DNA from: Gemmatimonadota bacterium
GTDB lineage: Bacteria > Gemmatimonadota > Gemmatimonadetes > Longimicrobiales > Gaopeijiaceae
DNA: 64,000 nucleotides
Assembly (NCBI GenBank): GCA_022560615.1
Contig: JADFSR010000003.1
Span: forward strand, 62,001-126,000
Direction: 5' to 3'
Every line of letters begins with the position of its first letter. Position 1 is the stretch's first letter. Below, in pieces: positions 7,572-37,524 of this stretch. The notes under the pieces are model-generated. The model saw only the letters and a list, made by a program, of their open reading frames with translations, did no database searches and was not told the DNA's origin. Made by a program: the position numbers and the translations under genes.

Positions 7572-7646
7572 CGACGAGGAGAGACGATGGATCAACCGCG
7601 CAACCGCCATGTGAGCGGCCCACCCCCCTTTCCGATCACCCTTCTA
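7572..7646. repeat. Shortened copy B of the structured terminal-inverted-repeat family
   Basis: Bases 7572-7613 match the reverse complement of 12192-12233 in copy A at about 39 of 42 positions. They are followed directly by gcggcccacc and a terminal sequence ending gatcacccttcta, which equals the end of copy A (12010 onward, inverted). The roughly 145 bases lying between these parts in copy A are missing, so this is a deletion derivative. The last bases, cttcta, include the TAG stop codon (7644-7646) of the minus-strand E1 gene, so the element end has become the end of that coding region. Confidence 0.75.
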
Positions 7647-9779
7647 GTACGCCGCCAGCTCCACCATCGCCTCGAGCACGTCGGGCGCTTGCGGCAGGAT
7701 GACGTTCTCGAGCTGTGGCGCGTAGGCGACCCAGGTGTCCATCGACGCCACGCGCTTCACCGGCCCGTCCAGCCAGGGGAAGAGATCGTCGGCGATGCGC
7801 GCCGCGATCTCCGCTCCGATGCCCCAGGACAGACTGTCCTCGTGCACGATCAAGACCCTGTTGGTCTTCTTCACCGAATCCGCGATGCGCTCCATGTCGA
7901 GCGGCTTCACAGTGCGCAGATCGATCACTTCTGCCTCGATGCCGTTCTGCTCCGACGCCATCTTCGCCGCGTCGAGGCTCCGTTTCACTAGCGCGCCACA
8001 CGTGACCACCGTGATGTCCGAGCCTTCACGTCGGACCTTCGCTTTCCCGAACGGGATCATGTACTCGGGCCCCGGATTGCGGCCCTTGTTGTAGACCTGG
8101 CGGTAGAGGTGCTTGTGCTCGAGGAAGAGCACAGGGTCCTCACAACGGATCGCGGTGCGCAGGAGACCGTTCGCGTCTTCTGCGGTCGCCGGCATGCAGA
8201 CATACAGTCCGGGGCAGTGCGTGAAGAGCGTTTCACCCGTCTGCGAATGGTAGATCCCTCCACCCTTCAGGTAGCCGCCGTACGGAGTGCGGATCACCAT
8301 CGGAGAGGAAAACGCGCCGTTCGACCGGTAGCGCATGGTCGCGAGCTCGTTCCGGATCTGCATCATCGCCGTCCAGATGTAGTCGAAGAACTGGATCTCG
8401 ACGACGGGCTTCATGCCGCGGAGGGCTAGCCCGATGCCGCGTCCTACGATGTTCGCCTCCGCGAGCGGAGCGTTGTACACACGCTCCGATCCGAACCGCT
8501 GCTGAAGGCCATGAGTGACCTTGAAGACGCCGCCCTTGCCTTTGACCTGGCTCAACGCCTCCTCACGCGAAGCGTCCGCTACATCTTCTCCGAAGAGGAC
8601 GATGCGTGGATCACGTTCCATCTCCTCGCTCAGGCACGAGTTCAGGAGGTCGACCATCGTGAGCAACTTGTCGCCTGCGTACTGCGGGTCGTCCTCGGTA
8701 TCGAAGTCAGAGGAAGTCGGGTCCACATCCTCCGAGTATAGATGGCGCATCGCCGTGCTGGGGTCTGGCTGCGGCGAGGCGAGTGCTTCGTCCGCTGCGG
8801 CGGCGACTTCGGCCTCGGTCTCGGCTTCGAGCGCATCGAGCTCTTCGCTCGTCGCGATCCCCGCGCCGATGAGCAATGCTCGCGTCAGGGTCAGCGGGTC
8901 GCGAGCCTCTTGCTCAGCGAGCTCCTCCGTCGTCCGGTAGGCGCGCTCGTCGTCGGACATCGAGTGCGAATAGGGCCTCGTGCAGTGCGCGTGAATGAAG
9001 GCCGGGCCTTTCCGAGCACGGGCGTACGCGACGGCTTCACCCGCCGCCCGATAGGAGTCCACGATGTCCGTACCGTCACACTCGACGATGTGTAGACCCG
9101 GAAAGCCCGCGACTAGCTTCGAGATACTGCCGCCCGCTGTCTGCACCTCGACGGGTACCGAGATCGCGTAGCCGTTGTCCTCGATCACGTAGACGATCGG
9201 CAGCTTGAGGTTGCACGCCGAGTTCAGCGACTCCCAGAACTCACCTTCGGACGTCGTACCGTCGCCCGCGCACACGACGACGATCTCGTCGTCCTCGAAT
9301 CTCTCGATTCGCTCGCGCAGCCCCGGGATGCGCGGGATCTTGGTCGTCGCTTCGGCGGCGCCCACGGCCTGTAGGAACTGCGTTCCGGTCGGCGACGAGG
9401 TGTTCGCGATGTTGTAGCGCACGTCGGCGTAGTGCCCGGGCATCTGCCGACCCCCTGAGGCCGGGTCCGCTTCCGCACCCACGGCCTGAAGCAGATGGTC
9501 CAGGGGTGTCTGTCCCAGCGCCAACGTCACGGCGCGGTCTCGATAGTAAAGGAAGAACCAGTCGTGTCCGGCCTTGCAGTGCTCGGCAACCGCGACGCCG
9601 ATCGCTTCGTGACCCGCGCTGGAGATCTGGAAAAAGATCTTGTTCTGCCGCTTGAGACTGATCTCGCGATCGTCGAGGCGCCGCGACGTCACCATCGTGC
9701 GGTAGAAGCGCAGGAGCTGCTCGGAGGAGAGTCCCGCCAGATCGTGAGCTTCCAGAACCTCGTTCTCTTGGGTCGCCAT
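7644..9779 (-). CDS. Fused 2-oxoacid dehydrogenase E1 component (alpha and beta subunits in one chain)
   Basis: The protein has 711 residues from ATG 9779; an in-frame TTG at 9806 would add nine. The N-terminal half is a thiamine-diphosphate-binding E1 alpha subunit, with '[11 protein letters not shown]' and the TPP motif starting '[10 protein letters not shown]' and ending 'VIEDN'. After a linker near residues 350-370 the C-terminal half is an E1 beta subunit ('[12 protein letters not shown]', '[18 protein letters not shown]', '[18 protein letters not shown]', 'FLEHKHLYR'). The reaction is oxidative decarboxylation of a 2-oxoacid, most likely branched-chain or pyruvate, with transfer to the lipoyl group of E2. 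Fused E1 chains are known in Bacteroidota and related phyla. No E2 or E3 gene lies nearby. The stop codon falls inside repeat copy B. Confidence 0.93.
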
Positions 9780-11930: not shown

Positions 11931-12476
11931 GCGCCCGATGGGTTCAGAGGAGGAGCCAGGTTAGCGGCGCGAACCGTGCCTGGACAGGAAACATATGTAG
12001 CCGGCGCGCTAGAAGGGTGATCCGAACGGGTGGTGGGCCGCCACCCGTGCTGTCGCACGGGTCCCCGGGTGCCACGGCCCCAGAGGGGCGAAGGCGTAGC
12101 CATAGCTCCTCCGAGACACTCCAACGACGGAGATGGGGCCGTGCCACCCCAACCCACAGAGGGGTAAGATCCTATCAGCCATGGTGTTGGGCACATGGCG
12201 GTTGCGCGGTTGATGCTGCGTCTCTCCTCGTCGGACCACCGCCTTCGGCGGCGGTGCCCGCTCGGCTACGACTCCCCGTCGTTCCTTGCCTGAACGCGCG
12301 CAAGCGCGAGGCACCCACGCGGTTAGGCGTGGGTCGCGCGGCCCGCCCCCCGTTCGGATCACCCTTCTATGATCGTTGTGGTGCCGTATCGGGCTACCTA
12401 ACTTTGGAGTATCGACCTGCCTCCCAGGGGCCGATCTCCGCTGCGAAGGACAAGGATCTTGTCGCTGTACTCGAAG
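11931..12476. other. Intergenic region dominated by repeat copy A
   Basis: The gap between the DUF255 gene and the small gene at 12477 is filled mainly by the 360-bp structured repeat at 12010-12369. Outside it I see only about 80 bases on the left (upstream region of the minus-strand DUF255 gene) and 107 bases on the right, which must contain the promoter of the plus-strand operon. No clear -35/-10 pair was found there. Confidence 0.6.
12010..12369. repeat. Structured repeat with terminal inverted repeats, copy A
   Basis: The 360-bp element is bounded by perfect 21-bp inverted repeats, 12010-12030 (tagaagggtgatccg...) and 12349-12369, followed inward by an imperfect gggccgc on both sides. 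Inside are several hairpins: acccgtgc/gcacgggt (12043-12062), a long stem of 12067-12081 with 12135-12149 (14 of 15 paired), caccgcc/ggcggtg near 12237-12255 and cccacgc/gcgtggg near 12313-12332. Four internal blocks recur in inverted order in copy C at 37127-37462, one of them identical over 30 bases (12231-12260). No open frame of note and no target-site duplication are seen. It is best described as a non-autonomous mobile element or structured-RNA cassette of unknown type. Confidence 0.85.
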
Positions 12477-27247: not shown

Positions 27248-28188
27248 TGGGAGATGCGAGTCGGAACGGTCAGGGCGCGGCTAGCCTGGCACACTCGAGC
27301 GATCGACTCGCCCCAGCCGTCGACGGGATACGAGCTCGGCAGGCAGTTCGGGGAAGGAGCCCAGCACTTCTGGTTCGCCGAGCGCAGTCAGATCTATCCG
27401 ACGCTGAAGCGCATGCGGGATCGGGCGTGGCTCAGCACCAACGCGGATGCTACGGCTGGAGTGTTCGCGTAGCTCCTGCGAAGCCACTCGTCCGAGCGGC
27501 GTGCTGACGCCTGAGGCACTGGCGGACGTCCTTCATCCGGCAGTGGCCGCAGCGGTGTTGGGATGGCAGGTTGGGACCCTGCAGGCCCAGCGGGGCAACC
27601 CCGACAGCGCACCTCCCGAAGCCGAGCCGTGACTCCACGTGAAGCAAGCGATCAGTTGGGCCTCGACATGCCCGAGCGCCCCTGGCCCAGCCAGTCATGC
27701 GGTTTGGCTACCTGGAGGCGACCGGAATCATCAAATGCGCGTATGGGGTGTCAGGCCACATCACCCACGGGCCGCCGGTGAGATGATCAGTCGAGATGCC
27801 CTCCAGGTAGGACCGCCCCGAATCCGCATCATCATCGGCTCAGATCAGCAAATCGCGAGCAGATCCAGCCACAGCAACACAAACGGCAGCCCCAGCGCGA
27901 AGAGCTCCGACACGATGCTCACGCTCACGAAGCCCGTCGAGGAAGGGCCCCCGCCCACACGAAGGCAACCGGGCGCAGCAGAGGCTGCCCGAAGGGGTGT
28001 GGGTCGCCGACGATCTGAGGCGCGCGGCGGACCTCATCCTGTCGGATTCGCGGCGTTGACCCGGTCTTTCGCCTCGGATAGCTTTTCAGGCCAGAAACCT
28101 CGCCCTTGGGGGTGGGTATTCAGAGCTGTGGAGACGGACCCGAGGCTCCACGGCAGGTAGATCGAGATATCAGGAGGATGTCGGCGCC
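27248..28188. other. 940-bp region without an intact gene
   Basis: The left part holds a PadR-like fragment (27254-27472). Further right I see an inverted 10-bp pair, tacctggagg (27709-27718) and cctccaggta (27800-27809), and short protein-like stretches on the plus strand (for example 'EGVWVADDLRRAADLILSD' ending near 28060) that look like another gene tail. The last 60 bases before 28189 contain the ribosome binding site aggagg for the A-type carrier gene. No RNA gene was recognised. Confidence 0.5.
27254..27472 (+). pseudogene. Truncated PadR-family transcriptional regulator
   Basis: The 72-codon frame contains 'STGYELGRQFGEGAQHFW' and 'SQIYPTLKRMRDRAWL', which together are the helix-turn-helix and wing of PadR-family regulators (consensus G-Y-[ED]-L ... 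F-W ... Q-I-Y-P-x-L-x-R-M-x-x-x-G-W-L). The first helix is only partly kept, and after the wing the frame ends at 27472 without the C-terminal dimerisation domain. A functional PadR has 110-180 residues. It sits right after the YiiX-like gene. Confidence 0.7.
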
Positions 28189-28515
28189 ATGGTGACGATG
28201 ACGAGTTCGGCGAGCGAAAAAGTCCAGGACTTCATACGGGAGCACGGCGTCGAGGGTGACGTTGGAGTCCGCGTTGCGGTGCTACCCGGTGGGTGCTCCG
28301 GCTTTCAGTACGGTTTGAACGTCGAGGACGGTCCCGAAGCGGACGACGAAGTGCTCGACGTCAACGGCGTGAAGGTGTTCGTGGACCCGTTCAGCGCGCA
28401 GTACTTGGAAGGTGTCGAGATCGACTACGTCACGAGCATGATGGGTCAGGGCTTCACTTTCCAGAATCCCAAGGCGAGCGGCGGTTGCGGGTGCGGGAGC
28501 TCGTTCACGGTTTGA
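28189..28515 (+). CDS. A-type iron-sulfur carrier (IscA/ErpA/HesB family)
   Basis: The 108-residue protein starts at ATG 28189, with aggagg 13-18 bases upstream; an ATG three codons later is also possible. The three family cysteines are present in 'LPGGCSGFQYGL' and the terminal 'GGCGCGSSF'. Such proteins bind and pass on Fe-S clusters to apo-enzymes. Several possible clients are in the window: MoaA and the radical SAM selenoprotein need [4Fe-4S] clusters. It is a single gene with remnant sequence on both sides. Confidence 0.95.
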   Translation: MVTMTSSASEKVQDFIREHGVEGDVGVRVAVLPGGCSGFQYGLNVEDGPEADDEVLDVNGVKVFVDPFSAQYLEGVEIDYVTSMMGQGFTFQNPKASGGCGCGSSFTV

Positions 28516-28841
28516 CGCCCAGCCGGCGCTGACGAACGGACTCGGCGCTCTGACCCGAGCCGGTCGGCATCGTTACCTTCACGGCTCGAGTCGCTCCGAC
28601 TCGCGTAGGATCACGCGCAGTCGAGGCAGGCGATCCCAGGTGTGGAAGGGGTCGGGCGCGCCGGGGCGAGCTCACCTTCTCCCCGCCCTGGACTCCCGAG
28701 CGTATCAGCATCCATGCCTACCATCCGGACGTCACGGGTCCCTGTGCGTGCCGGAAGCCGGGCGACGGTCATGTATCTGCAGGCAGCGGCCGACACAATG
28801 GTGCTCGCGCCGCCCGGCTCCAGTGATCTAGCAGCCGGCGC
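28516..28841. other. 325-bp region without a recognised gene
   Basis: Nothing here is convincing as a gene. On the minus strand a short stretch, 'PDPFHTWDRLPRLRVILRE', between two stop codons (about 28583-28670) has protein-like composition and may be a remnant. No terminator with a T-run follows the A-type carrier gene. Confidence 0.4.
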
Positions 28842-35643: not shown

Positions 35644-35822
35644 TACTTAAGCGTCGACTCTGGGCTGGTCGATGGACGAGCCCCAATCTAGCGGCATCAT
35701 GGGCCGCCCGTCACGTGGCCATCCCGCCTTCGCCCAGCTCACGCCCTACGCGGTAGCGGCCCTCCAGGGCAGGGGCGGCTGTTCAGGCGGGTGGTGGGGT
35801 CAGTCATCGAGGGCAGAACCAG

Positions 35823-37042: not shown

Positions 37043-37126
37043 TTCAATCTCTCTTTTTCTCAGTAACGGGAGGGTGAGGACGTGCCTTCGTCCACCGTAG
37101 GCACTCACGTCTCGGCGCTCCGTTCC

Positions 37127-37462
37127 AGCAGCCCGTGGTAGAAGTACAGTGGGCCGCCACCCGCAAGCGGGTACCCGGGGGTCTCGCGAGACCTGGAGTA
37201 GGCACGACGACGAGTCGTAGTTGTTCGGGCACCGCCGCCGAAGGCGGTGGTCCGAGGAGGAGAAACGACCTCCAGGGCCGCGACCCCCCTGCGCCCAACA
37301 CCATGTGTGAAATACATACCGGTTCGTGGGTTACGGTGGCACGGTCCCATCTCCGTCGTTGGCGCTCCTAGCCGTAGCGACGGCTATGGCGTCGTCGCAC
37401 CGCCTAGGAGCTGGAGCCGTGGCACCGTAACGCGGCCCGCTGTACTTCTACCACGGGCTGCT
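37127..37462. repeat. Structured repeat with terminal inverted repeats, copy C
   Basis: The 336-bp element is bounded by 31-bp inverted repeats that match at 30 of 31 positions (37127-37157 and 37432-37462; outer part agcagcccgtggtagaag). Internal blocks shared with copy A, in inverted order, are 37225-37254 (identical over 30 bases to 12231-12260), 37293-37305 (identical over 13), 37335-37362 (27 of 28) and 37416-37426 (identical over 11). A long stem joins 37330-37344 to 37417-37431 (14 of 15 paired). The corresponding stem exists in copy A with different outer base pairs. No open frame and no target-site duplication are seen. It is of unknown type, probably non-autonomous. Confidence 0.87.
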
Positions 37463-37524
37463 AGCGTCGTGTGGGTCGCACCGAAATGCGACGGGGAACG
37501 CGGCGACGCCGAAGTGTGGGGATG

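Follow-up and report, generated by a model that had tools for sequence, protein, structure and literature searches.

A MITE-like repeat family of the Gemmatimonadota, probably moved by IS1182/IS5-type transposases, with a conserved double-hairpin core and several insertion-sequence end types

What kind of element lies at positions 12010-12369 of the 64,000-nucleotide stretch of Gemmatimonadota DNA analyzed here (the window)? The initial annotation described an undescribed, structured and block-conserved family with terminal inverted repeats and two full copies, and read it as a functional folded RNA or single-stranded DNA rather than as a transposon. Its account of the sequence is largely borne out. 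The perfect 21-bp ends that it reported for copy A are there, within inverted arms (12010-12041/12338-12369) that match at 94% over 32 bp, and the arms of copy B (37127-37157/37432-37462) match at 97%. Both elements fold much more strongly than dinucleotide-shuffled sequence, whichever strand is taken (z about -9.5 to -10.8), which fits the internal hairpins it had noted, and no coding sequence was recognized in either, in line with its report of no reading frame. The two copies share, in inverted orientation, a 166-nt stretch at 78% identity, which includes the block of 30 identical nucleotides already noted (12231-12260 against 37226-37255). Both full copies exist, but a count of two greatly understates the family, which has dozens of matches in the genome and a third, truncated copy in the window. 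The features are as follows.

12012..12367, minus strand (the family reference orientation): copy A, a non-autonomous mobile element of end type T1 (GAAGGGTGATC...)
12010..12011, no strand: TA target duplication on the left side of copy A, context C-TA-G (from sequence; element absent in the relative G088)
12368..12369, no strand: TA target duplication on the right side of copy A (from sequence and the G088 site)
12012..12041, plus strand: left arm of copy A, terminal inverted repeat
12338..12367, minus strand: right arm of copy A, terminal inverted repeat
12061..12156, minus strand: hairpin module of copy A (~107 bp), conserved but diverged (covariance model R1, 49.9 bits)
12231..12260, minus strand: 30-nt block of copy A, identical to copy B (inverted)
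37128..37461, plus strand: copy B, same family, end type T2 (GCAGCCCGTGGTAGAAG...)
37126..37127, no strand: CA, a degenerate target-duplication dinucleotide on the left side of copy B (from sequence)
37462..37463, no strand: TA target duplication on the right side of copy B (from sequence)
37128..37157, plus strand: left arm of copy B, terminal inverted repeat
37432..37461, minus strand: right arm of copy B, terminal inverted repeat
37158..37294 (approximate, from the family alignment), minus strand: left module of copy B, related to the right module but inverted and diverged (pairwise alignments; in many copies, model hits on the opposite strand)
37327..37433, plus strand: right module of copy B, conserved (covariance model R1, 113.6 bits)
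37226..37255, plus strand: 30-nt block of copy B, identical to copy A (inverted)
7572..7647, minus strand: third copy, truncated, with a T1 end

The family has moved. In G088, a genome of the same genus, the flanks of copy A are joined without the element, which constitutes an empty orthologous site; its alignment fits either a TA duplication with a 2-nt indel or no duplication. When the joined flanks of 15 other copies served as queries, matches across the junction were obtained for many. Gapped empty-site alignments were left out, and the three clean ones read for TA all carry a single TA in the empty site and TA on both sides when occupied. Among 43 parsed copies, TA flanks the element on the left in 34, on the right in 36 and on both sides in 29, with C-TA-G as the preferred insertion context. 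The earlier statement that there is no obvious target duplication is thus overturned, copy A itself having TA on both sides. At copy B, rearrangement of the entire flanking region in the relative leaves no readable empty site. A heuristic test places 9 of 43 copies within ORF-like stretches, a low share compared with 62 of 76 control flank positions. We take the element to be mobile DNA because of these empty sites, the TA duplication and the ends that it has in common with IS1182/IS5-type insertion sequences. Terminal inverted repeats, TA duplication with empty sites, and many copies without a transposase gene are all MITE features that the family shows; a further one, ends in common with an autonomous element, is present for end type T7 and partially for T2 (13 of 14 outer bases).

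In the element's own 4.5-Mb genome, 45 copies of 191-432 bp were delimited on the basis of terminal repeats, and the number of delimited copies is put at about 50, besides further short, truncated and solo ends. Six contigs of this assembly (C28, C30, C31, C36, C54 and C62 of G000) terminate within element copies; the repeat thus probably fragments the assembly and leads to an underestimate of copy number. Within the order, BLASTN detected the family in 35 of 154 genomes. The covariance-model search that the initial annotation had proposed, run with a model of the right-hand module, did recover homologues phylum-wide, placing the core in 45 genomes, of 29 genera and five families, out of 395; named carriers are Gemmatimonadetes MAGs, e.g., SZUA-1190. 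Plasmid, phage and viral collections gave no match, the viral search being for one exact pattern. A contig labelled Planctomycetota (B31T1B8) has a copy (L120 4581-4771) whose flanks are the same as those of G000:C9:13526, and is probably misbinned.

Standard copies measure 300-314 bp and comprise, in order, a ~34-bp terminal inverted repeat with CTAG outermost, an inverted module, a variable linker, the ~107-bp module and the second terminal repeat. In many copies the module covariance model also has an opposite-strand hit in the left domain, and pairwise alignment of left against right module gives z about 5 in some copies and a weak z about 2 in others, which suggests kinship between the two modules. 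Compared with one another, copies are on average 60% identical at their outer ends and 47% in the linker, whereas the core blocks reach about 71-89%. Two mostly unpaired core stretches, GAGGAGAGACGA and CTCCGTCGTTGG, and core columns reach 81-89% across genera. Typical MITEs have ends that are more conserved than their core; the present family is the opposite, and we count this against a typical MITE. A 7-bp pseudoknot between the modules (AACGACG/CGTCGTT), seen by eye, is broken in several copies and was rejected. We also noted mini-palindromes of ~32 bp, such as TAGCAGCCCGTGGTAGAAGTACAGCGGGCTGCTA (L086 204-237, L088 247-281, L082 225-255), apparently deletions between CGGGC direct repeats in T2 elements.

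We regard the family as a previously undescribed MITE family, larger and GC-rich, with a single core on several end types. The open-access papers searched hold no description of it, a 2024 review on prokaryotic MITEs mentions neither IS1182 nor Gemmatimonadota, and no Rfam covariance model, among them those of HEARO and introns, matched at its gathering cut-off, which agrees with the claim of novelty in the initial annotation. A relaxed Rfam search of copy B returned one chance-level hit. HEARO/omega-RNA, group II introns and REP/BIME elements are likewise structured and dispersed, and neither IscB nor a reverse transcriptase was seen within the copies examined. A near resemblance is to the bacterial MITEs RUP, Correia/NEMIS, ERIC and CIR (PMC2229807), with which the family has TA termini, high copy number, palindromic structure and the lack of a transposase gene in common; CIR, in addition, consists of two inverted arms joined by a linker. 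Those elements are 100-200 bp long, however, whereas the present ones are GC-rich, run to about 300-430 bp, bear several end types per core and are spread phylum-wide. RUP, moreover, has been linked to IS630.

Which transposase moves such an element is best approached through its ends. Over their outer 22 bases, copies sort into discrete types that recur between genera. T7 ends (CTAGGAGCCTGTCCGAGTAA) are identical over 20-21 nt to the ends of annotated IS1182 elements on Methylobacterium and Xanthobacter plasmids, and an IS5-family element of Mesorhizobium has ends, CTAGCAGGCTGTTGAAGAAGT, close to T3/T5. The element's own genome also has, on contig C88, an element of 1.47 kb that encodes a 472-aa DUF772/DDE_Tnp_1 transposase and whose ends, CTAGGAGCCCGTGG(T/C)A, match the T2 ends, CTAGCAGCCCGTGG(T/C)A, at 13 of 14 outer bases, the likeness being confined to these outer 13-14 positions. 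Loci L337 and L338 score above the IS1182 cut-off and L341 above the IS5 cut-off (NF033551/NF033581); the C88 protein is homologous (E 3e-48), but at 164.7 bits it falls below the curated IS1182 cut-off of 270. Genome G032 has a fragment with 56% identity to the C88 protein, some 200 bp away from a T2-like end. It is because of these three likenesses of ends (T7, T3/T5 and T2 with C88) and the G032 fragment that we name IS1182/IS5-type transposases as the probable drivers. These insertion sequences also have CTAG at the insertion boundary; the present family differs from them in having no transposase and in its conserved double-module core. The genome contigs examined hold no autonomous partner with T1 (copy A), T3, T4 or T5 ends, and a pairing test did not find the ends of C88 homologues in plasmids. 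The known insertion-sequence end pair that the initial annotation had named as grounds for refuting its reading is therefore found for some end types, but not for the T1 of copy A. We infer that transposases of the IS1182/IS5 type move the elements, and that others of the same kind would serve T1, T3, T4 and T5.

Movement by IS630 (Tc1/mariner-type) transposases was our own first inference from the TA duplication, since insertion at TA with its duplication is the signature of the IS630 family, as shown for ISY100 (PMC2170065), and the duplication here lies in CTAG. A resident IS630 element does sit at C-TA-G, and its end matches T3 at 11 of 12 positions in register. But the IS630 elements recovered family-wide end in CTAGTG... 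or CTAGTAC..., with no MITE end type among them, whereas T7 and T2 ends are those of IS1182/IS5-type elements, and once the plasmids pointed to the latter we dropped IS630, which we now regard as a very unlikely driver. An IS110-family transposase gene within a copy with a T2-like left end and a T3 right end (L092, G000:C89, 822-2750) and an ISL3-family element with its own ends that adjoins an element end (L093, G000:C90, 1167-2748) look like nested or neighboring insertions rather than drivers. A hipBA toxin-antitoxin-like pair lies between two copy parts (L091, G000:C78, 334-2270; L170, G056:C188, 211-2146) and is either cargo or an insertion at a single locus; this locus recurs, nearly identical, in the genome of a different genus, which suggests contamination during binning or transfer.

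The folding of the core raises a separate question. Across 26 diverse copies 97.4% of cells are paired, and both sides have changed in 60 of 92 pairs; shuffles gave 30 such pairs and slid controls no more than 20. Such massive covariation would ordinarily speak for a functional structured RNA that spreads on transposon ends, as would a core with unpaired stretches 81-89% identical where ends reach 60% and the linker 47%. RNA selection, however, should allow G-U more readily than A-C, and a clear excess of G-U is normal in RNA stems. Here, variable pairs predicted on both strands have 29 G-U against 19 A-C mismatches, and 46 modules less than 90% identical have 20 against 29 (p=0.25 against equality) with three pairs rich in G-U cells set aside. 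With no bias of G-U over A-C, the covariation is hardly evidence for RNA function. Truncated and solo-end copies are also common, and no Rfam family was reached at cut-off. On the side of an RNA there remain three module pairs in which G-U is frequent to almost invariable in the reference orientation, the orientation that also gives the more stable fold. Overall, we consider an RNA function for the core unlikely, and the initial preference for a functional RNA or single-stranded DNA over a transposon gives way before the empty sites, the TA duplication, the insertion-sequence-type ends and the missing G-U bias.

The pairing of the palindrome points instead to arm-to-arm correction in DNA. Copying between the arms of an inverted repeat by template switching is documented (PMC8794818), and among the end substitutions of 44 copies 14 are mirrored on both arms of one copy against 12 on a single arm, a count that is suggestive only, in that copies inheriting a mirrored parent also score as mirrored. 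Selection for a cruciform or single-stranded DNA hairpin, as a transposition enhancer or a host-protein site, could keep the palindromes with neither RNA nor mutational correction, and both the strand-symmetric mismatch pattern and the conservation of the unpaired stretches agree with it; copying between arms is the simpler account of private mutations that appear on both arms of a single copy, and we hold selection of this kind to be possible but doubtful. Arm-to-arm copying, for its part, leaves unexplained the conserved unpaired stretches, the orientation-biased G-U pairs and the fold stability, and the core may have a sequence-specific role, in transposition or as RNA. A broader version, in which a phylum-wide structured core (RNA or single-stranded DNA) with its own function is the unit of selection and swaps replaceable insertion-sequence ends, strikes us as improbable.

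The explanation that we prefer, and consider very probable, is a MITE-like family of non-autonomous DNA transposons moved in trans by IS1182/IS5-type transposases. Each element would be a quasi-palindrome of terminal inverted repeat, inverted module, linker, module and terminal inverted repeat, on whose ends IS1182/IS5 (DUF772 + DDE_Tnp_1) transposases would act in trans, inserting it at TA, preferably within CTAG, with duplication of the TA. Copying from arm to arm as the DNA replicates (by template switching or conversion) would be the main reason why the arms stay perfectly paired, with the conserved unpaired core stretches presumably under some additional constraint. Counted against this explanation are the lack of a T1, T3, T4 or T5 partner in the parts examined, the restriction of the T2-C88 match to the outer 13-14 bases, the resident IS630 at CTAG with its T3-like end, the near-fixed G-U pairs, the orientation-biased stability of the fold and a core better conserved than the ends. 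The folded look of the element is real, yet upkeep at the DNA level seems to account for it better than the making of a working RNA.

An abundant mobile family with one conserved double-hairpin core and several insertion-sequence end types is thus spread across the Gemmatimonadota. It offers a cautionary case in which covariation passes as that of a structured RNA family without the asymmetry of G-U over A-C expected from RNA selection, and we suggest that pipelines for RNA discovery include a simple check of strand symmetry. Should the core prove functional in its own right, the family would carry a transposon-borne structure that is conserved across a bacterial class. Elsewhere in the window, short stretches at 28175-28517, 27687-27949 and 35714-35812 match many separate places in relatives.
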